Source: Methanothermobacter sp. (GTDB lineage: Archaea; Methanobacteriota; Methanobacteria; Methanobacteriales; DSM-23052). Taken from it: 64,000 nt of DNA. The position numbers were made by a program, and so were the translations under genes. The notes below the pieces were generated by a model. The model saw nothing but the letters and a program-made list of their open reading frames with translations, searched no databases and was not told the origin of the DNA. The DNA is taken from assembly GCA_030055615.1 (NCBI GenBank), contig JASFYN010000001.1, positions 265,267 to 329,266 on the forward strand, in the 5' to 3' direction. Shown here one piece after another: positions 15,086 through 61,530 of the stretch; position 1 is the stretch's first letter; each line of letters opens with the position of its first letter.

Positions 15086-15866
15086 TTTGTTTCACCCTGG
15101 GGATGAATTTTTTTATGGTTTCTGCCCAACCTTTGGGCCCGGCCCCTTTTGCATGGTAGAGGTTTTTCACGTTTAATTTGGCCCATTTGCCATTGTATCC
15201 TTTTACGAGTGCTGGGATGTCTACGGCTTTTAGGAGTGGTTCATCGGTATATGAATCTCCTATGCCTATTGTTTTGATTTTTTCATGTTCTTTTTTGTAG
15301 AATTTTGTGAGGATTTTTATGGCTTTGCCTTTATCAGCCTCTTTGCCGAAGACGTGTATGAATCTGCCCCCTATTTGGACGTTGAATTTTCTTTTTAGTT
15401 TTTCCAATGCTTCTTCGTCGTATTCTGTGATGGTTTCGCTGAATTCTCTGTCCTTGGCGAGTTTGGCATCATGGATGTTTAGCCCTGTAATTTCTGCGAT
15501 TTCTTCTGGGGTCATGTCTTGGTAGCCTTTTATCTTATACCCTTTTTTTTGCAGTTTCTTGATTTCTTTGATTATATTTTCAAGTTTTGTGCCTAGGAGG
15601 ATAATTTCATAGTCGTCTGTCGGTTTGCCTTTCGTTTCTTTGAAATATCCTTTGGGGATGTAGATTGCTGATCCATCCTCTACTATGAATGGGTGGTATA
15701 CTCCCATCTTTTCCCTTATTTTCTCCTGTTCTCTACGGGTTTTGGCAGAACAAAAAATAATGGGTATTTTGGCCTTTTTTAATTTTCTAAGAACTTTTTC
15801 GGCTTCACTATAGGAATATTTCTTGTCTAATAGTGTGTTGTCTAAGTCTGTGAAGATGATGTACAG
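15078..15866 (-). CDS. mpgP: Mannosyl-3-phosphoglycerate phosphatase, apparent CTG start
   Basis: A HAD-superfamily phosphatase of 262 residues. The N-terminal catalytic motif is IIFTDLDNTLLD. IIFCSAKTR (motif II region), GAxY-like VEDGSAIYIP and motif IV GIGDSYTDEPLL follow. It would remove phosphate from mannosyl-3-phosphoglycerate made by MpgS. The first ATG in frame (15707) lies after the catalytic Asp, so it cannot be the start. In-frame TGA closes the frame at 15871. The only codon at the right distance from the strong GAGGTGAT is CTG at 15866-15864. A one-base deletion that put a GTG at the mpgS stop out of frame is the alternative. Confidence 0.88.
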   Translation of the reverse strand: MYIIFTDLDNTLLDKKYSYSEAEKVLRKLKKAKIPIIFCSAKTRREQEKIREKMGVYHPFIVEDGSAIYIPKGYFKETKGKPTDDYEIILLGTKLENIIKEIKKLQKKGYKIKGYQDMTPEEIAEITGLNIHDAKLAKDREFSETITEYDEEALEKLKRKFNVQIGGRFIHVFGKEADKGKAIKILTKFYKKEHEKIKTIGIGDSYTDEPLLKAVDIPALVKGYNGKWAKLNVKNLYHAKGAGPKGWAETIKKFIPRVKQNG

Positions 15867-15870
15867 GATA

Positions 15871-17004
15871 TCACCTCAATTCCATGAAGATATTAGACTC
15901 TCTCTTTATGGAATTTATAAACTTTTTGGCGTTAATGTCTTTGATAGGTGGTATTATAGTATTCTTTGGTGGTCTATCATCCTTTAGGATGTTTTTATCC
16001 TTTAGTTCTTTTATTATTTTTTTTTGTAAGTTCTTGTCAGATAGCCTACTATAATAAATAGTTGATAATGAACTGAGTATCATATCCTTGATATGTTCTC
16101 TGCCTTTGTTTTCATGCATATGTGGGCTTAAAGTTTCTATCTGGAATACTTCAATCTCCTTTTTGAGATTTAGGTCGTCTGCGGATTCTAGCATGTGGAT
16201 CAATTGGTAGGGTTCGAAGGAATAACCAGAAGAATATGCTAATCTTTCGGCCAGTTCCATGCTCATGGCATGCTCTCCTGCATTTCCAGTCTTTATAATA
16301 TCGGTTTCATATCCTAATCGGTTGCTTAAAAGTAAATTCATGTATTTGTTCGTAATCCTTGAAACACGACCCCACTTTTCAAGATGTAATCCATTACCTG
16401 TGGCCTTTGGTTTATACTTCCATAAGAGCCTAACCATTGAATAAGGCGTCTTTGACATTGCAATTCCAATTGCAAAATCTAGAACATACTCATAGATTGA
16501 TGTCGGCATATAATTGTCAGCATCAACAAAACCAACATATTTTCTTCCAAGGCATTTGTTTATTAGAAGGCCGATGATTAGGCCTTCGCCTTTACCATCC
16601 CTTACGATCCCATCACTGAGTATATTTGTATACCCGATATCTTCTAATACTGATCCGATAGTAGGGTCTTTCTGATGCGCGAAGATTATAGGGTCTCCTG
16701 CTATGTTGTGAAAATTCTCCACAACTTTCATCTCTTTTTCGCATTTTTCCTTGTTACTATTCGAAATTACTATTATATGACAATCAGAAGGTATTGAACG
16801 GATCACACTATCAAACAATTTTATATTTTCATTTTTAATGGGTATTATAATAGAGAAATCTTCAAGGATCTGCTTAAGATCTTCTTTTGGAAAATTAAGA
16901 GCAGATAAAGTTGAAGTTCTAGATTCTAATTTGATTATACTCTGTGGATAATATACTTTAATGGGGCCTATATTTTCAACGCCTTTAGGTGACTCGACAA
17001 GCAT
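15871..17004 (-). CDS. mpgS: Mannosyl-3-phosphoglycerate synthase
   Basis: A 377-residue GT55 glycosyltransferase that joins GDP-mannose and 3-phosphoglycerate, the first step to the compatible solute mannosylglycerate. Visible motifs are FSIIIPIKNENIKLFDSVI near residue 50, the metal-binding GFVDADNYMPTSIYEYV near residue 160, and NAGEHAMSMELA further on. The length is normal. The ATG is preceded by GGAGAG. It heads an operon with mpgP (4-base gap) and the GH38 gene. The solute is known from hyperthermophiles such as Methanothermus and Thermococcales, so its presence here is informative about salt or heat adaptation. Confidence 0.92.
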   Translation of the reverse strand: MLVESPKGVENIGPIKVYYPQSIIKLESRTSTLSALNFPKEDLKQILEDFSIIIPIKNENIKLFDSVIRSIPSDCHIIVISNSNKEKCEKEMKVVENFHNIAGDPIIFAHQKDPTIGSVLEDIGYTNILSDGIVRDGKGEGLIIGLLINKCLGRKYVGFVDADNYMPTSIYEYVLDFAIGIAMSKTPYSMVRLLWKYKPKATGNGLHLEKWGRVSRITNKYMNLLLSNRLGYETDIIKTGNAGEHAMSMELAERLAYSSGYSFEPYQLIHMLESADDLNLKKEIEVFQIETLSPHMHENKGREHIKDMILSSLSTIYYSRLSDKNLQKKIIKELKDKNILKDDRPPKNTIIPPIKDINAKKFINSIKRESNIFMELR

Positions 17005-17115
17005 GATAATCTCTCCTTTCTAAATTATTGTTAAAGGGATAGTATAAAATTTTCCTAAAAATTGGGATTTGCACTAAAATATTAGAAGCTCGGTTTATAT
17101 CTTTATCCACAAATA

Positions 17116-17478
17116 ATGGAGGCCGGTGGCTTATATTTGGCAGCGAAGTTCTTATTGGTGGGTGAATATCTGATATGTGAATTTTAGATAACTTTTTTTG
17201 TGTGGTGGGAGTTTAAGGTCAACATATTAATTTTTATTGCTATTACAATTATCATATAAATGTGGTTGCGTTCGGTTGGTTTTAAACTTAAAAAAAAGCT
17301 TAACATTAGTCAGGGTGCAATTTCTCAAGTCTGGATTCATATGTCTCTGGGTATTGTTATGATGATTATTGGACGTTAATATGATTTTTTTGTTGATTTA
17401 ATATGCGGTTCTGGTTTTGAAGGTGTAATAGTCGCAGAGGAGATTTCCTTGAAAATACCCCATAGTGTGGGGGGGGTA
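17116..17478 (+). pseudogene. Possible decayed membrane-protein gene in the mpgS-serS gap
   Basis: The 513-base gap between mpgS and serS has one plus-strand frame that reads protein-like segments separated by three in-frame stops: MEAGGLYLAAKFLLVGEYL, then a hydrophobic NILIFIAITIII, then a 39-codon ORF (17260-17379) with FKLKKKLNISQGAISQ and a hydrophobic end, then LICGSGFEGVIVAEE. All four lie in the same frame. I do not recognise a family. It may be a decayed gene or simply an AT-rich chance frame. Confidence 0.25.
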
Positions 17479-17479
17479 T
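17455..17479 (-). terminator. Hairpin downstream of serS
   Basis: ATACCCC pairs with a later GGGG..GTAT run across a short ATAGTGT loop, about 40 bases after the serS stop on the minus strand. It is a likely transcript end or 3' stabilising hairpin for the pcc1-serS message. Confidence 0.45.
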
Positions 17480-17517
17480 AATCAATTTTGTTGACGGGGC
17501 CTTTCATTTAAAGGGTT

Positions 17518-19053
17518 TCATGGCCAGGTTATTATTGGGGGGATTTCAACTTCTTTTATCTTGTTTTTTATTGCTTTGGGCCAGTTATCGGTTTCGAAAC
17601 CTTTTTGGGCTAAGAATCCGAACACCCATCTTGTGAGGCCTATCCCTGTGCATCCTGTCCATATTTTTTCTCCGTGGGCTTCTTTTATTGAGAATCCTTC
17701 TATGAAGTGTGTTCCGTGCACATTAGCTGATATGACTGCCACTCCTTTTTCTTCTCCGGGAAGTGTTATTCGCATTTCGTATTTTGGTATGTCTGGGAAT
17801 TCTATGCCCCTTTCTTCTATTTTCCGCCCTTCTAGGTAGAATGGGTCGTCTCCGATTTCGGTGTACCATTCAAGTTCGAGTTCATCTGATAGTTTCTGTG
17901 ATAATTCAACGGTTTTGTTTCTTATTTTTTCTGTTTGTTCTGGGGTTCCAAGCCAGACTAGTTCTATTCGTTGGAATTCGTGGACTCTGTCTAGTCCTTT
18001 AGCGCCTCCGGCTTCCCATCGGTAGGTCCATCCGCTGCGGTCATAGAATTTTATTGGTAAATCCTCTTTGTCTACTATTTCGTGTGATAGGAATTGGTAG
18101 AAAGGTTCGCATTGTGCTGGCGCTATAACATAACCCGGATCTTTCAAGCCTTTTTTGAGTAAGTCTATGGGTATCTCTTTTTTTATTATGAGCTCTTTTT
18201 TGAATTTTTCGAAAGTTTCAGGGTCTCTGCGCGGGGCGTTGCAATAGTACATGCCTTCTGGTAATCCTTCGAGGTATCTCATTTTTTGCATTATTGGTAG
18301 TGGTATGAGTTTTGGGAATAGGCATTCTTGGAACTTTAGTGGTTTGACGATCTTTTGGATTACAAGTTCTTCGAGGGCCCTATGGAGGGCTGTGATGGGT
18401 GGTGTGTAGAACCATTGCCCCCTCCCTGGGAATTTTTTAACCCATCCACGCCTTATAGCCTCCTCTGTAGGGTCTCCAGTGAATATTGGCTTGTAAGGTC
18501 TGCTTTTAGCCACTATTTCCCCGGGTTTTGCCTTTGTAACCTTCACTGTTAAGTCTTCTTCAAATTCTATGATGTTTTTGACTTGTTTAACCACACGGTC
18601 AATAACGTGTCTTCTAAGCTCTTTTTCATCTAATGGTTTGAAATGGATTTTTAGGGTGTCTTCTTCAATTTTTAAAGTGTTTACAAAGGGTAATTCTTTG
18701 ATCTCATCTAATTTTTCTTCTGGGACGTCTCTGGATATTTTTGTGTTGAAAGTGTAATCGTCGGCAACCATTTTACGGATCCCGATATGATATTTTGGTC
18801 CTAGTAGTTGGGTTAATGGTTTTTTAAGTCTTAAAAGTCCGTCATGGGCTCTTACTCTCCTACCTGATACTATTGTCAGGTGGATCTCTTTGCCTTTGAC
18901 CTCCCATTGGATTATTTTTGAAGCGTCTTTTTCCTCCTTTGAACCCTTTAACAAGAGATCCTTATTGGCTCTTTCTATGAATTCTTCTATTTCTTCCATT
19001 GCGGGTGATACGTCTTTATTGAAAATTATTCTCCCTTTGAGTTTAAATTTCAT
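17518..19053 (-). CDS. serS: Serine-tRNA ligase, archaeal type 2
   Basis: A 511-residue SerRS of the rare, zinc-dependent type found only in methanogens. It has the idiosyncratic N-terminal tRNA-binding domain (residues 1-165) instead of a coiled coil. The class II core follows, with zinc ligands expected in APAQCEPFYQF, the WEAGG turn and WTGCTGIGLTRWVF. It charges tRNA(Ser) and supplies seryl-tRNA for selenocysteine-independent translation. The ATG follows GGTGATTAA, which is also the end of pcc1, so the two genes are co-transcribed with a 4-base gap. Confidence 0.96.
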   Translation of the reverse strand: MKFKLKGRIIFNKDVSPAMEEIEEFIERANKDLLLKGSKEEKDASKIIQWEVKGKEIHLTIVSGRRVRAHDGLLRLKKPLTQLLGPKYHIGIRKMVADDYTFNTKISRDVPEEKLDEIKELPFVNTLKIEEDTLKIHFKPLDEKELRRHVIDRVVKQVKNIIEFEEDLTVKVTKAKPGEIVAKSRPYKPIFTGDPTEEAIRRGWVKKFPGRGQWFYTPPITALHRALEELVIQKIVKPLKFQECLFPKLIPLPIMQKMRYLEGLPEGMYYCNAPRRDPETFEKFKKELIIKKEIPIDLLKKGLKDPGYVIAPAQCEPFYQFLSHEIVDKEDLPIKFYDRSGWTYRWEAGGAKGLDRVHEFQRIELVWLGTPEQTEKIRNKTVELSQKLSDELELEWYTEIGDDPFYLEGRKIEERGIEFPDIPKYEMRITLPGEEKGVAVISANVHGTHFIEGFSIKEAHGEKIWTGCTGIGLTRWVFGFLAQKGFETDNWPKAIKNKIKEVEIPPIITWP

Positions 19054-19057
19054 TTAA

Positions 19058-19273
19058 TCACCATATTTTTTCGATTATCATTTCAGAGACTAGTAGATCG
19101 TCGATACTTTGACGTATACTACCTATATATTCACTTTCTAACCTGAATATTATACTCTTACCTATTATCTCACCATCTATGAAACCTCGATTGTCTGGTT
19201 CAAGTGCTTTGAAGGTTATCCAAGCAGTTTCATCGTCTTCGTAATCTAATCTGATTTTTGCTTTTATCATCAT
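19058..19273 (-). CDS. pcc1: KEOPS complex subunit Pcc1
   Basis: A small protein of 71 residues (from the ATG at 19273; a second ATG is at 19270). The pattern IKAKIRLDYEDDETAWITFKALEPDN followed by a beta-strand stretch and SIRQSIDDLLVSEMIIEKI matches Pcc1, the dimerisation subunit of KEOPS. KEOPS makes the t6A37 modification of ANN-decoding tRNAs together with Kae1, Bud32 and Cgi121. The frame is open further upstream to 19324, but a longer product would have a non-conserved Cys-rich tail. It lies directly before serS, another tRNA gene, with which it overlaps in translation signals. Confidence 0.8.
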   Translation of the reverse strand: MMIKAKIRLDYEDDETAWITFKALEPDNRGFIDGEIIGKSIIFRLESEYIGSIRQSIDDLLVSEMIIEKIW

Positions 19274-19497
19274 ACTTGCACACATCCCTAACCGACAAGG
19301 AGGGTGGGTAATAATACCCCCCAACTATCTTTTATGCTCTCCTTTGGCGCAGTATACTAAGTATTTTCAAACTTTTCTTTGTAACCTAGGAAATTATTTA
19401 GGTGATCTAGAGATAAAAGTTTATTAAGGGATGTGTAGAAATTCAATTCAATAAGGTGAATATCTTTATCTTCATAGATATAAAGGAGGATTATTTT

Positions 19498-19980
19498 ATG
19501 GTCCGTGCATATACTAGACGAGAATATATTAGGAAAATCCCTGGAATAAAGATAGTCCAGTATGATATGGGCAATTTATCAGCTTCTTTCCCCTTATCTT
19601 TAAGTTTAGCCGTTAAAGCTCCTGCCCAGATCACACATAATGCCCTTGAGGCGGCTAGGATAGCCTCGAACAGGTACATGCAAAGAAAGGCCGGTAGGAT
19701 GGGCTATCATTTGAAGATTAGGGTCTATCCACACCATATCATAAGGGAAAATCCAATGGCCACAGGTGCCGGCGCCGACCGTGTGCAAGATGGTATGAGA
19801 AAAGCCTTCGGCAAGCCAGTGAGTTCTGTTGCATTAGTCAAGAAAAACCAGAGAATAATAACAATTGAAACCAATAAAAGGAATTTTAAGAACGCCAAAG
19901 AAGCTCTTAGGAGAGCAGCGATGAAACTCCCAGTCCCATGCAGGATAATAATCGACCGAGGAGAAGAACTTATCAAATAA
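19498..19980 (+). CDS. rpl10e: 50S ribosomal protein L10e (L16 family)
   Basis: A 160-residue archaeal L10e. It has the N-terminal [16 protein letters not shown] and central [45 protein letters not shown], which surround the loop near the peptidyl-transferase centre. It ends in [15 protein letters not shown]. The start is the ATG at 19498, after the strong AAAGGAGG; the open frame upstream is not coding. The gene is single, with its own ~170-base upstream region. Confidence 0.97.
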
Positions 19981-20010
19981 ACCCCCTCAACATTCTTTTT
20001 CAGTGATAAT

Positions 20011-22293
20011 ATGAAATTCGTGGCATTTTTCGAGGAACTCACCAAGGATGACGTGCCTATAGCTGGAGGTAAAGGGGCTAACCTTGGTGAACTAACCCAT
20101 GCAGGCATACCAGTACCCCCAGGTTTTGTAGTGACATCCAAAACCTATGACAAGTTCATGAAAGACACTGGCTTATTCCCAGAGGTTATGGGCTTGCTCG
20201 AGGACTTGGACGTGAATGATACAAAGGAACTTCAGAGAGTTTCCAAGCAAATAAAAGATATCATACTATCTACTGAGGTGCCTGAGGACATACAAACCAT
20301 CATAATAGAATCCTATAATGCTCTATGCCAGCGCATAGGCCGAGAGAACGTTTATGTTGCTGTACGTTCGTCCGCAACAGCAGAAGACTTGCCAGAGGCG
20401 TCATTCGCGGGCCAACAAGAAACCTTCCTTAACATAAAAGGAGCCGAGGATGTGCTAAAACATGTCCAAAAGTGTTGGGCTTCGTTATTCGAGGCAAGAG
20501 CAATATTTTACAGGGAACAGAACAACTTTGACCATGCAAAGGTCTCCATTGCAGTAGTTGTCCAAGAGATGGTAAACGCCGAAAAGGCTGGTGTAATGTT
20601 CACAGCACACCCATCAACAGGTGAAGACATCTTATTAATAGAGGCTTCATGGGGCTTGGGAGAGGCCGTGGTCTCAGGGGCTGTAACCCCAGACACTTAT
20701 TCAGTTGATAAAGCCACAGGGGAACTCTTAGATTTCAAAATCGGTGAAAAGAATGTGATGTTCAAAAGAGAAGATGGCAAGACAGTTAAAGTCCCAGTAC
20801 CAGATGATATGAGAGAAAAGAGAGTTTTATCAGATGAGGAAATAGCAAAACTCGCAGACCTTGGAAGGAAAATCCATGAACATTATAAGTTCCCCCAGGA
20901 TACAGAATGGGCCATAGAAGAAGGAAAAGTATACATGTTACAGTCAAGACCTGTTACAACATTAATAGAGATGAAAGTCCCGGAAGAAAAAGAAGAAGAA
21001 GAGGAGAAAGAGATCATATTAAAGGGTTTAGGTGCTAGTCCCGGTCTTGCTTCAGGTAAAGTTAAAATAATAAGGGATATAGATGAACTTGACAAAATAC
21101 AGACAGGTGACATACTCGTAACTGTGATGACCACACCAGACATGGTACCCGCGATGAAGAGGGCGAGCGGCATCCTAACAGATGAAGGAGGCGTCACATG
21201 TCATGCTTCCATAGTATCAAGGGAGCTTGGCATCCCCTGTATAGTAGGAACTGGTGATGCAACCCGTAAACTCAAAGACAACCAAGTCATAACCATGGAT
21301 GGTACAAAGGGCATAGTATACAAGGGTGAGATCGCAGCACCCAAAGAAGAGGAGGAAAAGGTTATAAGGGAAATACCACCAGAGGCCCCGTTACTCACTG
21401 TTACAGAGGTTAAGGTTAATGTGAGCATGCCAGAGGCTGCTAAGAAAGCAGCAGCCACTGGAGCTGATGGAGTAGGACTCCTAAGAACTGAGCATATGAT
21501 GTTAACACCTGGAGTCCACCCAAAGAAGTTCATAAAGGATGGGAAAGAAGAAGAATTAGTTAAGATATTAGTTGAGAATATTATGAAGGTTGCGGATGCA
21601 TTCTATCCTAAACCCGTATGGTATAGGACTTTGGATGCTCCCACGGATGAGTTCAAAACATTGAAAGGTGGGGAAGACGAACCATACGAGCACAATCCAA
21701 TGCTAGGCTGGAGAGGTATCAGGAGAGAACTTGATGAGCCGGAAATCTTAAAAGCCGAGTTCAAAGCCATTAAAAAGTTGTGGGAGAAAGGATACACCAA
21801 CATTGGTATAATGATACCCCTTGTACAGCATCCAGACGAATTAAGGAAAGCCAAAGAGATTGCAGAGGAAGTTGGTCTCAAACCACACCGGGATGTTGAG
21901 TTTGGTATAATGGTTGAGACCCCAGCTGCCGCATTAATAATCGAGGATTTCATAGATGTTGGGATAGACTTTGTAAGTTTCGGTACAAACGATTTAACAC
22001 AATATACCCTTGCAATTGATAGGAACAATGAACTAGTCGCTGACCTTTACACAGAGGGGCACCCAGCAGTCATGAAACTCATAGAAAGGGTTATAAAAAA
22101 GTGCAGGGAAGCCGGTGTCAAGACAAGCATATGTGGCCAGGCAGGGAGCATACCATGGATAGTTGAAAGACTCGTCGAACTTGGAATCGACAGCGTATCA
22201 GCTAATACAGATGCAGTTGAGGAAGTCCGCAGGACAGTTGCAAGAGTAGAGCAAAAAATCATGTTAAAAGCGGCGAGGAAACTACTAGAATAA
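20011..22293 (+). CDS. ppsA: Phosphoenolpyruvate synthase
   Basis: A 760-residue enzyme that converts pyruvate, ATP and water to PEP, AMP and phosphate for gluconeogenesis. The ATP-grasp domain starts with IAGGKGANLGEL and RSSATAEDLPEASFAGQQ. A charged linker of glutamates (about 325-333) precedes the swivelling domain with the phosphorylated histidine His398 in DEGGVTCHASIVSRELG. The TIM-barrel PEP domain carries GADGVGLLRTEHM and FGTNDLTQYTLAIDRN, and the C-terminal CGQAGS. The length is as expected. GTGATAAT precedes the ATG. It makes the PEP that feeds 3-phosphoglycerate and sugar synthesis, including mannosylglycerate. Confidence 0.96.
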   Translation: MKFVAFFEELTKDDVPIAGGKGANLGELTHAGIPVPPGFVVTSKTYDKFMKDTGLFPEVMGLLEDLDVNDTKELQRVSKQIKDIILSTEVPEDIQTIIIESYNALCQRIGRENVYVAVRSSATAEDLPEASFAGQQETFLNIKGAEDVLKHVQKCWASLFEARAIFYREQNNFDHAKVSIAVVVQEMVNAEKAGVMFTAHPSTGEDILLIEASWGLGEAVVSGAVTPDTYSVDKATGELLDFKIGEKNVMFKREDGKTVKVPVPDDMREKRVLSDEEIAKLADLGRKIHEHYKFPQDTEWAIEEGKVYMLQSRPVTTLIEMKVPEEKEEEEEKEIILKGLGASPGLASGKVKIIRDIDELDKIQTGDILVTVMTTPDMVPAMKRASGILTDEGGVTCHASIVSRELGIPCIVGTGDATRKLKDNQVITMDGTKGIVYKGEIAAPKEEEEKVIREIPPEAPLLTVTEVKVNVSMPEAAKKAAATGADGVGLLRTEHMMLTPGVHPKKFIKDGKEEELVKILVENIMKVADAFYPKPVWYRTLDAPTDEFKTLKGGEDEPYEHNPMLGWRGIRRELDEPEILKAEFKAIKKLWEKGYTNIGIMIPLVQHPDELRKAKEIAEEVGLKPHRDVEFGIMVETPAAALIIEDFIDVGIDFVSFGTNDLTQYTLAIDRNNELVADLYTEGHPAVMKLIERVIKKCREAGVKTSICGQAGSIPWIVERLVELGIDSVSANTDAVEEVRRTVARVEQKIMLKAARKLLE

Positions 22294-22321
22294 AATAGTC
22301 CTCCTATTTTTCTTTTGGGTT

Positions 22322-23470
22322 ATGGAAATGGACTTCAAAGGCCTCTCTAAGGATAAAATTTTAAAAACTTTAAAAAAGGTTAAAAAGGAAGACTTAACCT
22401 ATGATTCAGGTAGGATACTCGGTTCAATGTGTACTAGCCCCCACCCCCTTGCAAAGGAAGTTTTCTGCGAATTCATAGAGTCTAACCTTGGAGATCCCGG
22501 CCTTTTTAAGGGTACAAGGGCCCTTGAGAAAGACGTGATAAAAATGATCGGGGAGCTCCTTGGTGAACCTAATGTAGTGGGACATGTAGTAACTGGGGGT
22601 ACAGAGGCTAATTTGATGGCAATGCGCGCCGCCCGTAATATTAAAGGTCTTGTGAAGCCGGAGATAATAGTTCCCAAGTCGGCTCATTTCTCTTTTAAAA
22701 AGGCTGCTGAAATTTTAAAGTTAAATTTGAAGGAGGCCGCGCTCGGCCCTGATTATAGAGTGGATGTTGATTCTGTTGGGGAGCTTATATCATCTAATAC
22801 TGTTGCTATTGTGGGCATCGCCGGGACGACCGAACTTGGACTTGTGGATCCCATACCAGAACTTTCAAGATTATGCGAGGATGAAGGGATATATCTACAT
22901 GTTGACGCGGCCCTTGGAGGATTTATAATACCATTCTTGAAAGAAGCTGGTTATGATATTCCTGATTTCGATTTTAGGCTAGAGGGTGTTACTTCTGTTA
23001 CTATAGACCCTCATAAGATGGGTTTAGCCCCTATACCAAGTGGTTGTATAGTTTTCAGAGAGCGAAAGTATCTTGATTCTATGAGTATTGAAACCCCTTA
23101 TCTTACAGAGAAGCAACAATCAACTATAGTCGGGACTCGTAGTGGAGCTTCAGCAGCTGCAACATGGGCTATAATGAAATATATGGGACGCGAGGGGTAT
23201 ATAAGGGTTGTTAGGGATTCTATGAAGATAACACATTTTTTAGCCCGTGAACTTAAAAGGTGTGGGTTCGAGCTTGTGACAGAACCACAGTTAAATATTG
23301 TAGCTTTTAATTCGCCTGATATGCCCCCAGAGGTTCTTGCACATAAACTTGGATTAAAAGGTTGGTCTGTGTCCATTTCATCGTATCCTCCAGCTGTGAG
23401 GATAGTTTTAATGCCTCATATCAAGAAAGAACATATAGAAGCTTTTATGGAGGATCTTACAAGGATATGA
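22322..23470 (+). CDS. mfnA: L-tyrosine/L-aspartate decarboxylase
   Basis: A 382-residue PLP enzyme of the group II decarboxylases. MfnA makes tyramine for methanofuran and, in some archaea, beta-alanine for CoA. Signatures are GSMCTSPHP, VVTGGTEANLMAMRAARN, HVDAALGGFIIPF and the PLP-binding lysine in TSVTIDPHKMGLAPIPSG. A start at the second ATG (22328) is also possible. Its stop overlaps the start codon of the fumarase gene (ATGA), so the two are coupled. Confidence 0.93.
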   Translation: MEMDFKGLSKDKILKTLKKVKKEDLTYDSGRILGSMCTSPHPLAKEVFCEFIESNLGDPGLFKGTRALEKDVIKMIGELLGEPNVVGHVVTGGTEANLMAMRAARNIKGLVKPEIIVPKSAHFSFKKAAEILKLNLKEAALGPDYRVDVDSVGELISSNTVAIVGIAGTTELGLVDPIPELSRLCEDEGIYLHVDAALGGFIIPFLKEAGYDIPDFDFRLEGVTSVTIDPHKMGLAPIPSGCIVFRERKYLDSMSIETPYLTEKQQSTIVGTRSGASAAATWAIMKYMGREGYIRVVRDSMKITHFLARELKRCGFELVTEPQLNIVAFNSPDMPPEVLAHKLGLKGWSVSISSYPPAVRIVLMPHIKKEHIEAFMEDLTRI

Positions 23471-24589: not shown

Positions 24590-24592
24590 CTT

Positions 24593-25108: not shown

Positions 25109-25115
25109 CCTATTA

Positions 25116-25850: not shown

Positions 25851-25854
25851 GTTA

Positions 25855-26742: not shown

Positions 26743-26800
26743 CAAGGATCACCAAATGTTTTATTTAATCATCTTCACATATCTAAACTTTGGTGATATT

Positions 26801-27130: not shown

Positions 27131-27140
27131 CTGATCCCCC

Positions 27141-28337: not shown

Positions 28338-28343
28338 ACCAAA

Positions 28344-31149: not shown

Positions 31150-31150
31150 A

Positions 31151-31649: not shown

Positions 31650-31652
31650 GAT

Positions 31653-44664: not shown

Positions 44665-45016
44665 AAAATATATTCATCTGCTTTCTTATTATGGTTTTTG
44701 TTCAGAATAGGGTGTGATATAAATTGTTTTTCCATACTATAAAGATTTTATCGGATTTGAATACTGTATTTGTAAAATAAAGTGGAAAATTTGAACGGGA
44801 TTAATTTTTAGAAACAATAATTGGACATTTGATATATATTGTAGATAATTGTCTATATTGTTTTTATAAGTGAAATTTTTTTATTACTTGTAGATGGAAA
44901 TTAGTATTATCATATAAATAATTTATGAAGTGAACCTTAAACATAAAACTTATATACAAGAATTCTATGAATCATAATATGAAATTTATAACTAAACTAA
45001 TGTGGAGGCTTGAGAT
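44665..45016 (+). promoter_or_regulatory. AT-rich gap with the predicted cas operon promoter
   Basis: The 352 bases are very AT-rich and hold no gene that I can support. Near the end, CTTATATAC at 44949-44957 is a TATA-like element that would start the cas message near 44980. The strong ribosome site GGAGG at 45004-45008 then leads into cas6. Confidence 0.45.
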
Positions 45017-45748
45017 ATTAGATTACATATTCTACTTAAAAGTGAGGAAAAGCCACTTAAAATACCCTATAATTACAATTACGCTATAAATTCCATGATA
45101 TATTATAAAATAGCCGATAAAGACCTCGCAATGGAATTGCACAAGTCAGATGATTATAAATTTTTCACATTTTCTGAATTCTATGTCATGAAAAGAAGGG
45201 CCCTTAAAGATTATTTATTAGCAGAAAATGGGGAGATAGGACTTTACATATCATCACCAAATGAGGAATTCATAAAAAACCTTGTAGAAGGATTCTTAAC
45301 CAATCCCCATGTAACTTTTTTAAATAAGAAAATGTGGGTAGAAAAAGTCGCACTTTTAAGAAAACCTAAAATAAAGAAGAGAATGAAGTTCAGGACACTT
45401 TCCCCAATCATTGTACGGACACTCAAAGAAAAAAACGGGAAATTGAAGCAGTGGGATCTTAACCCAGCAGATTTGAAATTCTATGAGAATTTGCAAAAGA
45501 ATCTCATCAATAAGTATACAGCATTTCATGGAGAATATAAAGGAGACGAATACATGAAAATATTTCCAGAAACTCGGTCGATAAAGCGGAAGAGGATCAA
45601 AGTACCTAAGGAGGGGGCTGAAACATATCATAGAGCATATCATATGAGATTCGAAATAGAAGCCGATCCTAGGCTTCTTGAGTTTGCATATGATTGTGGA
45701 TTAGGTGAAAAAAACAGTATGGGATTTGGGATGGTGGCGAAGGTATGA
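45017..45748 (+). CDS. cas6: Cas6 CRISPR RNA endonuclease, apparent ATT start
   Basis: A 243-residue RAMP protein that cuts pre-crRNA in the repeat. The C-terminal glycine-rich loop CGLGEKNSMGFGMV is clear, and the N-terminal part reads RLHILLKSEEKPLKIPYNYN-YAINSMIYYKIAD, the normal Cas6 beginning. The first in-frame ATG is at 45095, within NSMIYYK, so starting there would remove the first beta strand. In-frame TGA at 45011 limits the frame. The codon eight bases after GGAGG is ATT at 45017. This is the first gene of a nine-gene type I-B operon; its stop overlaps the start of cas8b. Confidence 0.88.
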   Translation: MRLHILLKSEEKPLKIPYNYNYAINSMIYYKIADKDLAMELHKSDDYKFFTFSEFYVMKRRALKDYLLAENGEIGLYISSPNEEFIKNLVEGFLTNPHVTFLNKKMWVEKVALLRKPKIKKRMKFRTLSPIIVRTLKEKNGKLKQWDLNPADLKFYENLQKNLINKYTAFHGEYKGDEYMKIFPETRSIKRKRIKVPKEGAETYHRAYHMRFEIEADPRLLEFAYDCGLGEKNSMGFGMVAKV

Positions 45749-47586: not shown

Positions 47587-47589
47587 AAA

Positions 47590-47904: not shown

Positions 47905-47905
47905 A

Positions 47906-49075: not shown

Positions 49076-49096
49076 ATTTTAGTCGAGGCGCTTCTA

Positions 49097-52446: not shown

Positions 52447-52453
52447 AGATTTT

Positions 52454-52987: not shown

Positions 52988-52998
52988 AAATTTTTACG

Positions 52999-53967: not shown

Positions 53968-54067
53968 TCAAAAAAAACTATATAATTCATGTCCTCATTT
54001 TACTTTTTGTATTCCATGAATTAAAATGAAAAGACATTTTATCTGAATTATGAAAATCTAAAATGAA

Positions 54068-54331
54068 ATGTATGTTATAATAGTTTATGACGTAAATGTA
54101 AAACGTGTTAACAAGGTTAAAGCATATTTGAGAAAACATCTTTTATGGGTTCAAAATTCAGTTTTTGAAGGTGAAATTACAAAAAGTCAACTAGAAAGAA
54201 TAAAAAAAGATCTTAGTACCATCTGTAACGAATCAGAGGATTCCGTGATAATCTATTCATTCAGAACCAAAAAAGCCATGAAAAAAGAAGTTTTAGGCAT
54301 CGAAAAATCATCAATATCTGAAATAATATAA
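54068..54331 (+). CDS. cas2: Cas2
   Basis: An 87-residue Cas2. It begins with YVIIVYDVNVKRVNKVKAYLRKHLLWVQNSVFEGEIT and ends SVIIYSFRTKKAMKKEVLGIEKSSISEII. This is the ferredoxin-like fold that bridges two Cas1 dimers. It is 100 bases after cas1 and the last cas gene, directly before the leader. No Shine-Dalgarno is visible. Confidence 0.95.
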   Translation: MYVIIVYDVNVKRVNKVKAYLRKHLLWVQNSVFEGEITKSQLERIKKDLSTICNESEDSVIIYSFRTKKAMKKEVLGIEKSSISEII

Positions 54332-54684
54332 TAGAATCCTTTATTTTTTATTTTAAAAAATTTTTAGTTTTCTAATTTGCCTTTAACTAAATGTTGCTTT
54401 GTCGTTTATCACCCTCTTTTTTCATTTAATTTTTGTAACATTTTGTTATTTTATTCCCCTTTTAACCTTTACAAAGATATAGCAACTTTTTTATATATTT
54501 ATCCAATTTTAGTTGGCTTTCATGTAATTAAATTCGTTCTACTATTTGAATTTCATTTTTTGACTTTTTTGACAAAGTCGTCTATCTTTATAAATGGGTT
54601 GCATTATTAAGGATCGCCGACACAAACCATTAAATAGAAGCAACAAGAAAAAGAATAAAACAAAAACAAGAAAAAAACCGCCCT
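54332..54684 (+). promoter_or_regulatory. CRISPR leader with predicted promoter
   Basis: A 353-base T-rich leader between cas2 and the first repeat. TTTATAAA at 54587-54594 is a TATA-like element, putting the pre-crRNA start about 70 bases before the array. Upstream at 54562-54579, GACTTT-TTTGAC-AAAGTC is an inverted repeat that could bind a protein. Leader at the cas2 end and a degenerate repeat at the far end both show that the array is read on the plus strand. No gene is supported here. Confidence 0.7.
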
Positions 54685-56128
54685 ATTAAAATCAGACCAA
54701 AATGGGATTGAAATCTCTTTTGAGTATATGAGTTTGAGCGTTCCAGTCCCATTAAAATCAGACCAAAATGGGATTGAAATCAACAATAGAAAGTATGGAG
54801 AGAAGGCTGATATGATAGAATGGATTAAAATCAGACCAAAATGGGATTGAAATGGTGTGTAGCTTATTTTGTCGTCAGGTATGCTGCCAAATTAAAATCA
54901 GACCAAAATGGGATTGAAATTGGAGACCATGATAGCTGCTTCATCGTCCATTAACGATTAAAATCAGACCAAAATGGGATTGAAATCTTGTAGACCTTGC
55001 CAAAGAAGTTCTCGTGAAGATTAATTAAAATCAGACCAAAATGGGATTGAAATTCTAAACTTGATCGACAAGGGTATTGAACTAATATTATATTAAAATC
55101 AGACCAAAATGGGATTGAAATATCATTGACAAGGGAGAACATGGAAGCGTGTACCCATTAAAATCAGACCAAAATGGGATTGAAATACACGCAACATAAT
55201 ATAACTATCATAAGAGTTTTTATTAAAATCAGACCAAAATGGGATTGAAATTTAATCTCCTTGTGGTTTGGGGTGTTAGGTGTCTGTTATTAAAATCAGA
55301 CCAAAATGGGATTGAAATGATAAACTCAAGATACTTGTATAGTGTCCTCTTCTCATTAAAATCAGACCAAAATGGGATTGAAATAAGGACAAACCCCAAC
55401 AGTAAAATGCACGGGAAATATAAATTAAAATCAGACCAAAATGGGATTGAAATATGGAACTCTGAAAAAGGTAAATTCATCACACTATGATTAAAATCAG
55501 ACCAAAATGGGATTGAAATTTTACTTTCTCCCAAGCCCCTTTTAGCCAGTTAACAACGTATTAAAATCAGACCAAAATGGGATTGAAATCAGATTATCGA
55601 CGAGGAACCAGTATTCTCATAAAGGAGATTAAAATCAGACCAAAATGGGATTGAAATCCTGTTATGGCATTCCATGCTCCCTGTGCTGCTCCTTATTAAA
55701 ATCAGACCAAAATGGGATTGAAATTCTATTATAGGCGAAATTGGCTGGCGCTCCACATGCTGATTAAAATCAGACCAAAATGGGATTGAAATCTGCTTAT
55801 GGCTGAGAATGCGCTTGTAGCCCCAGAATTAAAATCAGACCAAAATGGGATTGAAATAAGGTTTAGCATGCGCGCGAAGCAGCCCTCCTCGACTTTGTAT
55901 TAAAATCAGACCAAAATGGGATTGAAATCATAGGATGGGGAGACTATTATACGATAGCGAATCACCATTAAAATCAGACCAAAATGGGATTGAAATTCCC
56001 AGCACTCCCAGCTAGTGCAAACGCTGATCTGAATTAAAATCAGACCAAAATGGGATTGAAATTAGTACAAATGGGCACAGAAGAAACTAGAACGCAAAGT
56101 TAAAATTAGACCAAAATGGGATTTTGAG
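54685..56128 (+). CRISPR. Type I-B CRISPR array, 22 repeats and 21 spacers
   Basis: The 30-base repeat begins ATTAAAATCAGACC, continues AAAATGGG and ends ATTGAAAT. Repeats start at 54685, 54751, 54824, 54891, 54957, 55024, 55092, 55157, 55222, 55289, 55355, 55424, 55490, 55560, 55628, 55695, 55763, 55828, 55899, 55967, 56033 and 56099. Copies 1-21 look identical. The last (56099-56128) is degenerate at both ends, beginning GTTAAAATTAGACC and ending ATTTTGAG, which marks the old end. Spacers are 35-43 bases long. The 3' ATTGAAAT is the likely crRNA 5' handle. Spacer targets could not be searched. Confidence 0.98.
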
Positions 56129-56217
56129 GAAGATCCATTAAACGAATCATTTTAGGCTAAATTGTTGCAAGTTGCACTTTCCAGACGCGCGCGAAAGATA
56201 ATAAATTGTGGTGTTTA

Positions 56218-57315
56218 TTATCTTAATAGGTGGGGATTTCCTAAATACACTCTTTTTAATCCCGTTTCTTTGGCTGCTTTTAAGCATTTTCCTGCTTCTT
56301 CCCATGTTAATAATGGGAGATCTGTCATCATGTGTTGTGGTGAAAAGGCGAGTAAGACATAGGGTATGTTAGGGTTAAGTTTTGCTAGGAAGTTGGCTAT
56401 CTTTTCTACTTCGTCTTTTTCCACATACCCTGGTACCATGAGTGTGCTTGCAACAAGTAGGGGTGGTTCACTCCTCTTATCAAAATAGTTTTTATAAATG
56501 TATTTGAAATTTTTAAGGGTTTGCCGGTTACTTGCACCTGTGAGTATCTTGTGGAGTTTTTCGTCCCATGCTTTAAGGTCGAATTTTATTATACCCCCTG
56601 AGGATAAGCTTATCTTTGCCATTTCATTTATGTATTTGGGGTGGATATTGCCGTTGGTCTCCCAACATATTCTCAGGATCTTATTCTTTTTTTCTTTGAT
56701 TGCACTTTGCGCGGCTGATAGGGCAAATTGCATCTGTGGCGATGGGTCACCACCAAAGAAGCAAATACAGGCACTTTTATCATCCAATATCTGGATTATG
56801 TCATTGATATTAAATAGAGGTTTCCCTGTGAAGGCCATTTCTTTGTAGGAGCTGTTTTGACAGTATAGGCAATCAAATGAACAGGTTCCGAAAAATACGG
56901 CGAGGTTTCTGTATCCATGTTCTGTTTTTGGTGAATAGGCATATTTTGGGTAGCCAGCTCCTGTGGAGGCGGGGCAGACCCAATCTGCCACGCAGTTGGT
57001 GGGTAAGGGATCGAAATAAAAAATACCGACAGCTTCTTGGCTTGTATTTATTTTGGAATATATTTTACCGTTTTTCACTTGGCGCAAGCGGCAGAAACCA
57101 TATTCTCCTTCTTTTATCTTGCAAAGGTTCCCGCAATCTTTACAGGTGATGCCTCCTGGATCCCTTGGGGGGAGAAATGGTGGGTTGATGCGGCTTTTTT
57201 GGTGTGCAGTTTTTATCAGGTTTTTAACGATCTTTTCAGGCGCCTTTTTCAGGCAATTTCCACAAATGTTGTCTAGTATATTAGTGGCGGTTCTGCCGCA
57301 AATTTTGCAGTGGAT
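56218..57315 (-). CDS. COG1313-type radical SAM protein, apparent ATC start
   Basis: A 365-residue protein. The N-terminal zinc-ribbon-like part has HCKICGRTATNILDNICGNC and CKDCGNLCKIKEGEYGFC; the core holds the radical SAM motif GTCSFDCLYCQNSSY, the SAM-binding FFGGDPSP, and the late FDLKAWDEKLHKILTG. The first usual start, TTG 57087, would drop about 76 residues with both Cys clusters. In-frame ATG 57330 is followed four codons later by a TGA. The strong GGAGGTG is six bases before ATC at 57315, which I take as the start. Function unknown; related proteins are pyruvate formate-lyase activase-like enzymes. Confidence 0.82.
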   Translation of the reverse strand: MHCKICGRTATNILDNICGNCLKKAPEKIVKNLIKTAHQKSRINPPFLPPRDPGGITCKDCGNLCKIKEGEYGFCRLRQVKNGKIYSKINTSQEAVGIFYFDPLPTNCVADWVCPASTGAGYPKYAYSPKTEHGYRNLAVFFGTCSFDCLYCQNSSYKEMAFTGKPLFNINDIIQILDDKSACICFFGGDPSPQMQFALSAAQSAIKEKKNKILRICWETNGNIHPKYINEMAKISLSSGGIIKFDLKAWDEKLHKILTGASNRQTLKNFKYIYKNYFDKRSEPPLLVASTLMVPGYVEKDEVEKIANFLAKLNPNIPYVLLAFSPQHMMTDLPLLTWEEAGKCLKAAKETGLKRVYLGNPHLLR

Positions 57316-57426
57316 TCAGTCCACCTCCATATCGTTAAAGTTTTAGCATAATCATCGGGAAACTTTTCTGTTAGGGTTTTTTTATTCAATAAATAAATAT
57401 TGAAAATTTTATCACAAAATTTTTTC

Positions 57427-57561
57427 CTAATAGTCCAATCCAATTGGGTAAAATTTGTCTTTAATGTCTTTTTTAAGCTTATACACCACGGGATTGTCCA
57501 TTAAAATTTTGATATGTTCATGCCCCTTCGGCTGCGCGGTTGCTTTATTTGAACCAGGATA
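57427..57561 (-). pseudogene. Possible 3' remnant of a gene in the gap after the radical SAM gene
   Basis: The 353-base gap 57316-57668 is AT-rich except for a minus-strand frame of 44 codons, open from just after a TAA to TAG at 57427-57429. It reads PGSNKATAQPKGHEHIK, then DNPVVYKLKKDIKDKFYPI, ending GLDY. The G+C-rich patch and protein-like composition suggest the tail of a lost gene, but I recognise no family and there is no start codon with a ribosome site. A small upstream plus-strand ribosome region serves the translin gene. Confidence 0.25.
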
Positions 57562-57668
57562 TTAACAAGAAATATTTTTTTTGTGGGGGGTACATCTTTG
57601 ACAATTTGAAATGTTTTTATCTAGGTTAATAATAAAGTTAAAAATTAAATAGGTATGGGGGTGTGGTC

Positions 57669-58241
57669 ATGGAAGCTATAATACGGGAGATAAAGAGGGT
57701 GCTTGATGAGAAGGATGATTTGAGGGAAAAGGCTCTTAAAATGACCCGGGAGATAATAAGGTTGTCTGGTGAGTGTATAAGGGCTATTCACCGGGGAGAT
57801 TTTGGTTTGGCTGATGAGAGGCTTAGTGAAGCTGAGAAGCTAGTTGGGAGGTTGGGGGGTATGCTTGAGGGGCATCCTGATTTGTATTATAGTGGTTATG
57901 TTAGGGATGCTCATCAGGAGTATGTTGAGGCCTTATTATTTTATAGTTATGTGGAGGGTAGGGAGTTTCCTTTACCAGCGGATGTTGGAGTGCCTGAGTC
58001 TCATTATTTGCTTGGTCTTGGTGATTTGGTGGGGGAGCTTAGAAGATACTTTTTGGAGTTACTGGTTAGGGGTGATTTAGAGGGTGCTGAAAAGCTTTGT
58101 AGGTCTATTAAAAAATTGTATGATGAGTTGTCGATATTAGAGTATCCTAGGAGTCTTGTGAATATAAGGCATAAGCAGGATAACGCCCGGTATATATTGG
58201 AGAGGACTCTTGAGGATCTTATAAGGGCTAAGAGTTCATGA
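57669..58241 (+). CDS. Archaeal translin-family protein
   Basis: A 190-residue, almost all-helical protein. It begins EAIIREIKRVLDEKDDLREKALKMTREIIRLSGECIRAIHRGD and includes LYYSGYVRDAHQEYVEALLFYSYV, with the conserved E-Y-x-E-A pattern of translin/TRAX, and later YLLGLGDLVGELRRYFLELLVRGD. Translin relatives bind nucleic acid and some cut RNA with acidic residues in this helix. The role in methanogens is unknown. The start is ATG 57669 after GGGGTGTGG; a GTG at 57663 is inside it. Confidence 0.85.
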   Translation: MEAIIREIKRVLDEKDDLREKALKMTREIIRLSGECIRAIHRGDFGLADERLSEAEKLVGRLGGMLEGHPDLYYSGYVRDAHQEYVEALLFYSYVEGREFPLPADVGVPESHYLLGLGDLVGELRRYFLELLVRGDLEGAEKLCRSIKKLYDELSILEYPRSLVNIRHKQDNARYILERTLEDLIRAKSS

Positions 58242-58399
58242 AACAAAGGGTGCTAATATAGTTCTCATATTTTTTTGCAATTCAGTCTTCATAAAGATTA
58301 TTTTTTTGACTTTTTTATTATAATGGTTGAAATAGTCATGTTTATATTATATTGTAAACATAATATATGGTGTAATATATTTTTTTGGTGGTGGTTTTA

Positions 58400-59378
58400 T
58401 TGGTTGATGTTGTTTTGGAATATGTTAGAGGTTTTGAGTTTTTGGATGGTCAGGTTTCAGGGTCTATGGAGGTTGTTCCTTTAAGGGCTCCTTTTGATGG
58501 GACTGTTGAATATCTCACATTAGGTGAGGCTATGGGGTCTGGTCTTTTAGAGGTTAGGGAGGTTGGTGAATCTGGTTCGGTGCCTGAGGTTCTTGTGATT
58601 AATAGGGCTTCTTTGCCTGTGTTGGTTATAGATGGTGAGGAACTGGAAGGTGCGAAGCAGGATAGGATAGTTAATGCGACTATTCTTCTTCGTGAGAAGA
58701 ATGAAACTGTTATTCCTGTGAGTTGTGTGGAGGCTGGACGTTGGTACCGTACTTCTGAATTTTTCGAGGATTCTGGTAGGGTTGCTGCTAAGAGTGTGAG
58801 GTTTAAGAAGGTTGTGACTGTAACGGGATCTCTTGAAAGTAGTTCGGAGTATTTATCTGATCAGAGAGTTGTCTGGGATTCTGTTGATAGCTTGCATTCA
58901 ATTGCGGGGTCTCGTCCAGATACGGGTGCGATGGGTGAGGCGTTTAAAAAAACATGAAGATAAACTTGAAGGTTTTATAAAACCATTTAAGGTTTTGGAG
59001 GGTCAGAATGGTGTTTTGGTAGCTATAAATGGGGAAATTGTCGGTCTTGAATTTGTTTCAAGACATTCGAGTTATAAGGTGCTTCACGATAAAATAATTA
59101 GGAGTTATGCGCTTGAAGCATTATTTGAAGAAGGGTCAAATAAATTGGCCGATAGTACTATAAAAGCGTTTATGGATGAGATCATAGGCGCAGATGAGAT
59201 CAGGAGAAAATCTCCAGGTTATGGGTTTGATTATAGATACAGATCAAAGAATTGTATTGGCTCGGCCCTTGTATACAACGGAGAGGTTATACATGGGTTA
59301 TTCTTCAAATTAGAGAAAAGGGAGATGATGCCCTCATGGAAAGATAGGATGATTTACAGATTGGAATCAGAATTGTAG
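58400..59378 (+). pseudogene. ARPP-1/DUF6569-like protein, broken by a one-base frameshift
   Basis: Two frames together give one protein of about 325 residues. The first part (TTG 58400, after GGTGGTGG) contains VPEVLVINRASLPVLVIDGEELEGAKQDRIVNATILL, then PVSCVEAGRWY and the rest up to GAMGEAFKK. The frame changes in a run of seven A (58946-58952); with six A it reads AFKKHEDKLEGFIKPF and goes on to KSPGYGFDYRYRS and the end at 59378. A start at 58833 in the second frame is not real. This family occurs in archaea and bacteria, function unknown. Gene state as for the other frameshifted genes. Confidence 0.75.
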
Positions 59379-59822
59379 ATCACTAAGAATTTTATTTTAG
59401 TAGTGGGGATTTTTTCCTATTTTATATGGGGGGGATGGGTGTTTTGGGCTTGGTGCTCCCTCTTTTTTTGGGGGGGTGCTCGTAGGTTTTTTTGGGTATT
59501 TTACATTTTTAATATAGTAGCGTTTTTTTTGTTATTTTTGTGTTTTGATTTTCTTGTTTGATATTCTCAGCTTTTTTTTGTTCGGAAAATTTTTAATAGG
59601 TGATTTTTAGTGGTTATAAAACTTTTATACTTTTTTTTGTTTTGTTTTGAAGGGAATTAGTATGTTTCTTTTAATGGATGGGTTATGGGATGGTGCGTAT
59701 CTTCTTATATAAAAGTGTGATGTTTAGAGTTCTTTTGGCTGGTGGAATGAAAGGTTTTCCGGTGGCTTATTTTTATTTAAAAAGGTCTTATAGAGTTTTT
59801 TATCGGAGTTTAAACCGTAATA
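59379..59822. other. T-rich intergenic stretch without a supported gene
   Basis: Very T-rich sequence with G-runs near 59426 and 59471. A 63-codon frame (59678-59869) has basic and hydrophobic residues but no ribosome site or family match, so I do not annotate it. A CTAG-GCTTTAGT-CTAG inverted repeat lies just after it, at 59831-59846. The stretch ends in the promoter of the next gene. Confidence 0.5.
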
Positions 59823-59882
59823 TTTATATACTAGGCTTTAGTCTAGTTTTGGTTGTCACAAGAATCTAATGTGACATGGAGG
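59823..59882 (+). promoter_or_regulatory. Promoter of the pseudomurein-binding protein gene, with inverted repeat
   Basis: TTTATATA at 59823-59830 is a TATA-like element placing the start of transcription near 59852. Right there is the inverted repeat TGTCACA-N9-TGTGACA (59854-59876), followed two bases later by the ribosome site GGAGG (59878-59882). The repeat could be an operator or a hairpin that hides the ribosome site in a short leader. Confidence 0.5.
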
Positions 59883-59889
59883 CGGTAAA

Positions 59890-61530
59890 ATTTCGATAAA
59901 AATTGTGTGCATGTTCTTTGCCTGCATGCTCCTACTGAATGTTGGGTTCAGTTATGCAGAAGAAAATGTCACACAAAACATGGACGACCACCAAAACTTG
60001 GATCAAGCAACCAATGTGAATTCGCCCCATAACCAAATGGATAGCCCACCAATAACGAACACTGGAAATAATGTTACCTTTGAGGGATCAAATGGGCTGG
60101 AGGCGGCGGCTGGATCTGCCCTGGACAGTTCAGATATTGAAAATGCGGCAGTTCGACTAGACAATTTCATCAAAAACAATAAAAGACTACCAGCCTATGT
60201 TACAGTTGGCGGAAAACAATTAAACCCTGCGGAGTTCCTCCAACTTTCAACAGCATATCTTACTGGCAAAACTCTCCAGCCTAACAGTGCGGAATTGCCA
60301 AATAAAACAACAGGAACAAGCCTCAAAGGGTCAATAACCCAAAAAGATTACATTAAATTAGCAGAGAAAGTATATAATTTCATTAAATCGAATTCAAGAG
60401 CTCCGAACTACGCGACCTTTAATAATCAGCAGATAAAATTCGAAGCTCTAGTATGGCTATTTGCAAGGATCATAAGCTTCAAAGCAACTAACCAGAGACT
60501 ACCCAACTATGTGAACCTGGAAAACCTCAACAGTATCAAAAACTTACCCTTCAATAACAATTCCACCAATTCTAGTAGCAATTCAGCTACAGACCAAATA
60601 GGGGAAGGCAGTAACAATTCTAGCAGAACTGTTGGCAATTCAAGTATAAGCATTTCTGACATTATTTCAGCGGCCAAAAACCTAAAAAGTTTCATTGAAA
60701 ACAATAAAAGATTACCAGTTCATGTTACAGTCTCTGATCAAAATTTAACTGTTGCCCAATTCCTTGAGTTAATGTCGAGGGTGATAGTCCAGGTAAATTC
60801 TGGTCAGACAAGCCCATTAACCCCAAGAATTGTCACAGAAGCCCCAAATCCCTCAGGTTCCGCTACTGGCCAAATCACAAAATCAGAGTACATAAAATTG
60901 GCAAATAAGCTTTTAAGTTTCATCGGAACCTACGGTAGAGCTCCGAATTATGCCACAGCGAGTATTGGCAGCGTATCATATCCCAAACTTGTCTATGCCA
61001 TGAGCAGAATACTCAGCTTCTACAAGGACAATAAGAGGTTACCCAACTATGTCACTATAACAGATTTTTCCAGTCAAAATAATGAACTTAGCCAGTATCT
61101 TGTGGCCACTGCAAACTGTCAAGTGAACGATCCTAGTATAAAGTCGCTTGCAACCCAACTGACAGCCGGCCTTACTAGTGCATGGGATAAGGCAAGAGCA
61201 ATCTTCAACTGGGTCCGTGACAATATAAGCTACAGTTTCTATTATAATACAAGGTATGGTGCTGTTGGAACCCTTAAATACAGGACTGGTAACTGTTGTG
61301 ACCAGGCACATCTTGTGGTGGCGCTTGCCAGGGCAGCAGGGTTACCTGCGCGTTACGTTCATGGGATCTGCACTTTTTCCACTGGAACTTATGGACATGT
61401 CTGGGCGCAAATCTACATCAATGGTGCATGGTATAACGCGGATGCGACAAGTAGCAAGAACAGCCTCGGTGTGATAAAAAGTTGGAACACAGCTATTATT
61501 AGAGGGGTGTACGCCAGCCTACCCTTCTAA
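59890..61530 (+). CDS. Secreted pseudomurein-binding protein with transglutaminase-like domain, apparent ATT start
   Basis: A 546-residue envelope protein. A signal peptide (SIKIVCMFFACMLLLNVGFSYA) leads to a Asn/Thr/Ser linker, then four pseudomurein-binding repeats in A-B-A-B order (for example NFIKNNKRLPAYVTV and FIKSNSRAPNYATF), and a transglutaminase-like C-terminal domain with Cys in RTGNCCDQAHL, His in YGHVWAQIY and Asp in YNADATS. This is the plan of the pseudomurein endoisopeptidases PeiW/PeiP, so it may remodel the wall; a housekeeping role is likely. The usual first start, GTG 59905, would cut the basic n-region. ATT 59890, seven bases after GGAGG, fits best. Confidence 0.85.
   Translation: MSIKIVCMFFACMLLLNVGFSYAEENVTQNMDDHQNLDQATNVNSPHNQMDSPPITNTGNNVTFEGSNGLEAAAGSALDSSDIENAAVRLDNFIKNNKRLPAYVTVGGKQLNPAEFLQLSTAYLTGKTLQPNSAELPNKTTGTSLKGSITQKDYIKLAEKVYNFIKSNSRAPNYATFNNQQIKFEALVWLFARIISFKATNQRLPNYVNLENLNSIKNLPFNNNSTNSSSNSATDQIGEGSNNSSRTVGNSSISISDIISAAKNLKSFIENNKRLPVHVTVSDQNLTVAQFLELMSRVIVQVNSGQTSPLTPRIVTEAPNPSGSATGQITKSEYIKLANKLLSFIGTYGRAPNYATASIGSVSYPKLVYAMSRILSFYKDNKRLPNYVTITDFSSQNNELSQYLVATANCQVNDPSIKSLATQLTAGLTSAWDKARAIFNWVRDNISYSFYYNTRYGAVGTLKYRTGNCCDQAHLVVALARAAGLPARYVHGICTFSTGTYGHVWAQIYINGAWYNADATSSKNSLGVIKSWNTAIIRGVYASLPF

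Follow-up and report, generated by a model that had tools for sequence, protein, structure and literature searches.

Candidate near-cognate start codons behind strong Shine-Dalgarno sites in genes of a Methanothermobacter species and other Methanobacteriales

The window, a stretch of 64,000 nucleotides (G000:C1:265267-329266), is part of the genome of a Methanothermobacter species (G000; GenBank assembly GCA_030055615.1), a member of the Methanobacteriales whose assembly comprises 1.49 Mb in six contigs. It contains four genes that appear to begin at near-cognate codons: mpgP, cas6, a radical SAM gene (rSAM), and a gene for a pseudomurein-binding protein (PMBP; Table 1). A preliminary description of this DNA had placed CTG, ATT, ATC, and ATT start codons behind GGAGG- or GAGGTG-type Shine-Dalgarno (SD) sites at these positions, and inspection of the sequence confirmed each of them. 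Spacing was taken as the distance from the fifth GGAGG base, and the anti-SD as the archaeal consensus rather than as read from the G000 16S rRNA. On this basis, the SD-led ATG starts of G000 show a spacing peak of 7–9, the range into which all four window sites fall.

Table 1. Features associated with the four candidate near-cognate starts (positions are those of the window; spacing in nucleotides).
Feature	Position	Strand	Remarks
mpgP start codon CTG	15864..15866	-	in frame with YIIFTDLDNTLLD
mpgP SD GAGGTGAT	15870..15877	-	includes TGA stop of upstream gene; spacing 7
mpgP, mannosyl-3-phosphoglycerate phosphatase family	15078..15866	-	262 aa counted from CTG
cas6 start codon ATT	45017..45019	+	in frame with RLHILLKSEEK
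cas6 SD GGAGG	45004..45008	+	from sequence; spacing 8
cas6	45017..45748	+	243 aa from ATT; TIGR01877 E 4.4e-48; PF01881 and PF21350
rSAM start codon ATC	57313..57315	-	TGA directly upstream; next canonical codon +76 codons
rSAM SD GGAGGTG	57322..57328	-	from sequence; spacing 8
rSAM protein, N-terminal Cys-rich (HCKICG..CGNC) motif	56218..57315	-	365 aa from ATC
PMBP start codon ATT	59890..59892	+	ATT recurs in paralogues and G001/G002
PMBP SD GGAGG	59878..59882	+	from sequence; spacing 7
PMBP, pseudomurein-binding-repeat and transglutaminase-like surface protein	59890..61530	+	546 aa from ATT

The reading frames are closed by an in-frame TGA just upstream, as had been described, at a distance of 4 (mpgP), 2 (cas6), 0 (rSAM), and 6 codons (PMBP). 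In mpgP, no canonical codon lies between this stop and the CTG, and the next one is found 53 codons downstream; the corresponding distance in cas6 is 26 codons. The claim that no ATG, GTG, or TTG could supply the conserved N-terminus consequently stands for mpgP, cas6, and rSAM; it does not strictly apply to PMBP, in which a GTG (position 59905) is located five codons, and an ATG seven codons, into the frame. The predicted MpgP protein matches TIGR01486 (residues 3–255 to profile positions 1–257; E 1.5e-75), the rSAM protein matches PF04055 (E 5.8e-17) and TIGR04337 (E 4.5e-18, under the cut-off of that profile), and PMBP matches PF09373 (E 6.4e-48) and PF01841 (E 2.3e-26).

We aligned the start codons of the four window genes with orthologues from genomes of the same genus and of the same order. 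The rSAM gene of G001, whose protein is 89% identical, has the same ATC behind the SD GGGGGTG. At the mpgP position, G002 carries ATC-TTA, and its sole in-frame GTG sits inside the SD. In cas6, three f2-family genomes have TTA at this position and a fourth has GTA, G034 has ACG, and ATG is found in G002 and most genomes of family f3. Hence, mpgP and cas6 have a non-canonical codon at the start position in some relatives, but a different one. Ordinary starts in orthologues, which the preliminary description had regarded as evidence against near-cognate initiation, do occur: G003 has GTG in rSAM and TTG in mpgP, many genomes have ATG in cas6, and three have ATG in pyrG, the CTP synthase gene discussed below. 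Since these codons stand at the same position, they confirm it as that of the start codon and do not refute the use of near-cognate codons in the other genomes.

Two side observations concern these genes. Across the Methanobacteriales (loci L001–L015), the cas6 ATG was lost repeatedly and, depending on the lineage, replaced by ATT, TTA, GTA, or ACG; this may reflect selection for low Cas6 output. A second copy of the window's rSAM gene (G000:C1:201287-202379, minus strand) is broken across two overlapping frames and the G002 orthologue is full of stops, so this family is apparently undergoing decay within the genus.

An ATT following GGAGGC...AA(A/T) is present in three PMBP paralogues of G000 and in G001 and G002; the context reads GGAGGCGATAAT-ATT-TCG in G000, G001, and G002, whereas six f2 genomes have GGAGGCGATAGT-ATA-TCC. 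Two further G000 paralogues have GGAGGCGGTAAA-ATT, one of them with the next canonical codon 55 codons downstream. A near-identical start context, GGAGGCGRTAAN-ATT, is found at G000:C3:104891, C3:191429, and C2:265523 (plus strand) as well as at position 59878 of the window. A start at the GTG of position 59905 would lack an SD, yet leave a charge-poor signal peptide. Because of this usable GTG five codons in, the case for a near-cognate start is weaker for PMBP than for mpgP, cas6, and rSAM. The G001 orthologue has in-frame ATG codons both over the SD and downstream, which leave the codon unproven for that gene alone.

To view these sites in a genomic context, we predicted 1494 genes over 1.457 Mb of G000 (19 kb of contig C4 and all of C6 left out), and for 1086 of them an orthologue was assigned from G001, of which the first 1.2 Mb were used (median identity 85%); further relatives were compared by motif searches only. 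The same CTG follows an SD in both genomes in hemA, cbiG, pyrG, and a DUF1512 gene, and identical near-cognate codons behind an SD were likewise found in a LUD-domain gene (ATC), metE (ATA), rSAM (ATC), and a gene for a 158-aa membrane protein (ATT). The spacing is 7–9 at the rSAM, hemA, cbiG, pyrG, DUF1512, metE, and LUD sites. In profile alignments, residue 1 of PyrG corresponds to profile position 2, residue 1 of CbiG to position 1, residue 1 of MetE to position 2, and residue 3 of MpgP to position 1; the N-termini of these families hence start at the near-cognate codons. Clean conserved cases amount to about 1% of the G000/G001 gene pairs. The proposal that this lineage uses near-cognate initiation is thus supported by the same codons in a second species and by the order-wide CTG of pyrG, and such use appears wider than had been supposed, being common to two other families.

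Several candidates were treated with more reserve. Picking starts by their SD alone, without conservation, produced many internal false positives. A number of near-cognate pairs (C1-:307940, C1-:7992, C1+:462201, C2-:431441, C3-:221350, and C4-:6023) were removed by hand as they were internal or had a plausible canonical start, and metE of genus g5, with ATA, ATT, or ATC at the position, was not counted, for this codon looks like an internal isoleucine with an upstream start. ACG309, ATA211, the PH-domain gene, the NTP transferase gene, and cbiB were retained as candidates only. An RNA ligase gene has CTA or ATA right after a TAA in both G000 and G001. The ligase (G000:C1:197158-199239, plus strand) carries an N-terminal zinc ribbon and is preceded in the same frame by a CBS-domain gene, with only the TAA between them; its leader, GGAGGGGGGTTAACTAATA, is unchanged in G001, and there is no canonical start codon for 17 codons. 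The G001 orthologue of G000:C3:68094 (minus strand) reads GGGAGGGATAAAAA-GTA-TTA where G000 has ACT-TTG, so that a canonical TTG start gives way to GTA or TTA.

The most deeply conserved case is pyrG, which encodes an essential enzyme. Of 60 genomes of the Methanobacteriales, 48 have CTG as the codon at the Met position, 11 have TTG, and one has ATG. In G045, G129, and G147, ATG stands exactly at the start position. A GRDG motif was detected 4–12 nt upstream in 125 of 151 genomes, and most f3 genomes have no in-frame canonical codon ahead of the start (e.g., GGAGAGGATTTTT-CTG-ACA). The first base of the codon varies while the third is a G in all genomes, although just 13.5% of the leucine codons of G000 end in G; given this invariant third base, the pattern fits a start codon and not an internal leucine. 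The predicted CUG start of pyrG is old and maintained across most of the order, and is not a sequencing slip. We found no publication on a CTG start of pyrG in the open-access literature.

These comparisons bear on the possibility that ATG, GTG, or TTG starts were converted into near-cognate codons by faulty sequencing or assembly, or by recent mutation. The preliminary description had reasoned that single-base errors would have to strike exactly this codon in four genes. For rSAM and PMBP, an error can be ruled out, since the same codons are present in paralogues or in relatives that were assembled independently; mpgP and cas6 do not share this safeguard, their codons being matched in no relative of the genus, although some relatives have other non-canonical ones there, and the G000 assembly consists of six contigs. 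Identical near-cognate codons in an independently assembled species (rSAM, pyrG, hemA, cbiG, metE, LUD, and DUF1512) and the CTG of pyrG in 48 of the 60 genomes have already refuted such errors for the conserved sites, and as a general explanation they are very unlikely.

Alternatively, the true starts might be nearby canonical codons, either upstream and overlapping the SD (GTG in GGAGGTG, TTG in GAGTTG) or downstream, with the near-cognate codon being internal. Several findings lend weight to this view and count against near-cognate initiation at the sites concerned. Canonical codons lie three to five codons upstream over the SD in pyrG (a TTG three codons upstream, abutting GGAG, in both G000 and G001), in metE of G000 (GTG, −3), and in PMBP of G001 (an in-frame ATG at −5, with another ATG downstream); the NTP transferase gene has a GTG at −3, and the downstream GTG of PMBP has been mentioned above. 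However, no such codon exists in frame in mpgP, cas6, rSAM, hemA, cbiG, DUF1512, and LUD, and for rSAM, hemA, cbiG, DUF1512, LUD, and metE an upstream in-frame canonical codon is absent from at least one of the two genomes. In pyrG, the upstream codon is missing in most relatives while NTG is kept at the start. We therefore consider canonical starts improbable as a general account.

Automated statistical tests on the genome scale were weak and are a further point of reserve. A genome-wide count of near-cognate codons at SD spacing, as the preliminary description had proposed, was borderline: without supervision, near-cognate pairs made up 10 of 28 at a spacing of 6–11 versus 13 of 71 at 12–23 (p = 0.06), the latter serving as spacing control. 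A strict boundary test was weak or borderline as well, and an expectation-maximization start model yielded no excess, with 27 near-cognate starts for the true SD versus 31–41 for control (scrambled) motifs. Conserved CTG/CTG pairs numbered four against 0.31 expected from codon usage among 64 sites (P ~3e-4), a comparison picked after inspection. The case for near-cognate starts rests on individual genes and the depth of their conservation, and not on automated enrichment.

The position of the start, the SD spacing, the lack of canonical alternatives, and the conservation across species are direct observations. On these grounds, we regard the window sites and their conserved counterparts as genuine SD-directed near-cognate start codons, with a probability of roughly 0.85. 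Their support, which is strong, comes from the sequence level. Initiation would really take place at these codons and would be weaker than at AUG; the weak starts may be kept for low or regulated output.

In mechanistic terms, a strong SD would set the 30S subunit so that its P site holds the near-cognate codon (CUG, AUU, AUC, AUA, rarely ACG), and the ordinary initiator Met-tRNA would accept this codon with its one mismatch, yielding an N-terminal methionine at lower efficiency. Such use would be genus-wide and, for some genes, extend throughout the Methanobacteriales. An altered initiator tRNA or a defective aIF1 was set aside, since aIF1 is present and intact and both components look normal; this ordinary equipment makes the SD-held 30S subunit with a one-mismatch initiator the simplest mechanism. 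A reported finding that speaks against it is the discrimination of Sulfolobus aIF1 against non-canonical starts (PMC6237735).

For the CTG class, a terminating ribosome might deliver the start, i.e., termination-reinitiation. Relative to the stop of the preceding gene, the five CTG starts (those of mpgP, pyrG, hemA, cbiG, and DUF1512) are found at −4, −4, +4, +5, and +12 nt; hemA and cbiG share a 4-nt CTGA overlap with their upstream genes, and the mpgP CTG begins 4 nt past the end of the preceding stop. Since these starts overlap or adjoin an upstream stop, termination-reinitiation is a likely route, on suggestive evidence only; against it, nearness to an upstream stop is ordinary overall (8/12 versus 53% of canonical starts). 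The nearest upstream same-strand stop of cas6, rSAM, and PMBP is 350–1100 nt away, so these stand-alone genes would need de novo initiation. The abutting stops of rSAM (TGA), hemA (TAG), and the RNA ligase gene (TAA) might also hint at readthrough or frameshifting that makes the N-termini without near-cognate initiation. We judge this exceedingly improbable, as the hemA stop is not constant between species (TAG/TAA), several upstream frames are short and non-coding, and a correctly spaced SD would go unexplained.

More tentatively, and with the odds somewhat against it, the Methanobacteriales may keep a regulated class of genes with near-cognate starts, the order-wide CUG of CTP synthase among them, in which the identity of the start codon would act as a conserved archaeal control element, possibly because CUG starts are coupled to upstream termination or via aIF1 levels. 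According to a review from 2021, archaeal non-canonical translation has been demonstrated only for elongation and termination (PMC8211752); an order-wide CUG in an essential enzyme, together with ATT, ATC, and ATA starts, provides precise candidates for near-cognate initiation in archaea. Gene callers restricted to ATG, GTG, and TTG would shorten or overlook genes such as hemA, cas6, and mpgP in these methanogens. Such starts would also be a natural system in which to examine how start-codon stringency depends on aIF1 and on the strength of the SD.

In Escherichia coli, near-cognate starts are found in infC (AUU) and pcnB (AUU). A GTC start is used by sigR of Streptomyces (PMC5472188). The sites described here resemble these three in being SD-led, conserved starts outside AUG, GUG, and UUG, and may resemble them in a tie to low or regulated output; the three are single bacterial regulatory genes under IF3 control, whereas here many enzymes and surface proteins of an archaeal order are involved, in which aIF1 and aIF2 replace IF3 and IF2. 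A study of initiation from all 64 codons in E. coli found ATT to reach ~0.3% of the best codon (Hecht et al., 2017, as quoted in PMC10666635); near-cognate starts thus worked weakly there, but in a bacterial reporter and not in native conserved genes. An annotation-based survey of 36 prokaryote groups (PMC5622118) also recorded switches from AUG to CUG or AUU, with a frequency per start of only ~1e-5 to 1e-4, as against the ~1% of genes considered here. Termination-reinitiation at ATGA overlaps is known in archaea (PMC10666635); hemA and cbiG have the same 4-nt overlap, but with CTGA in place of ATGA, GTGA, or TTGA. Finally, about 5% of the small open reading frames detected by ribosome profiling in the methanogen Methanosarcina mazei start with CTG (PMC11456600), but those are unannotated short reading frames, whereas the candidates reported here are conserved metabolic genes.

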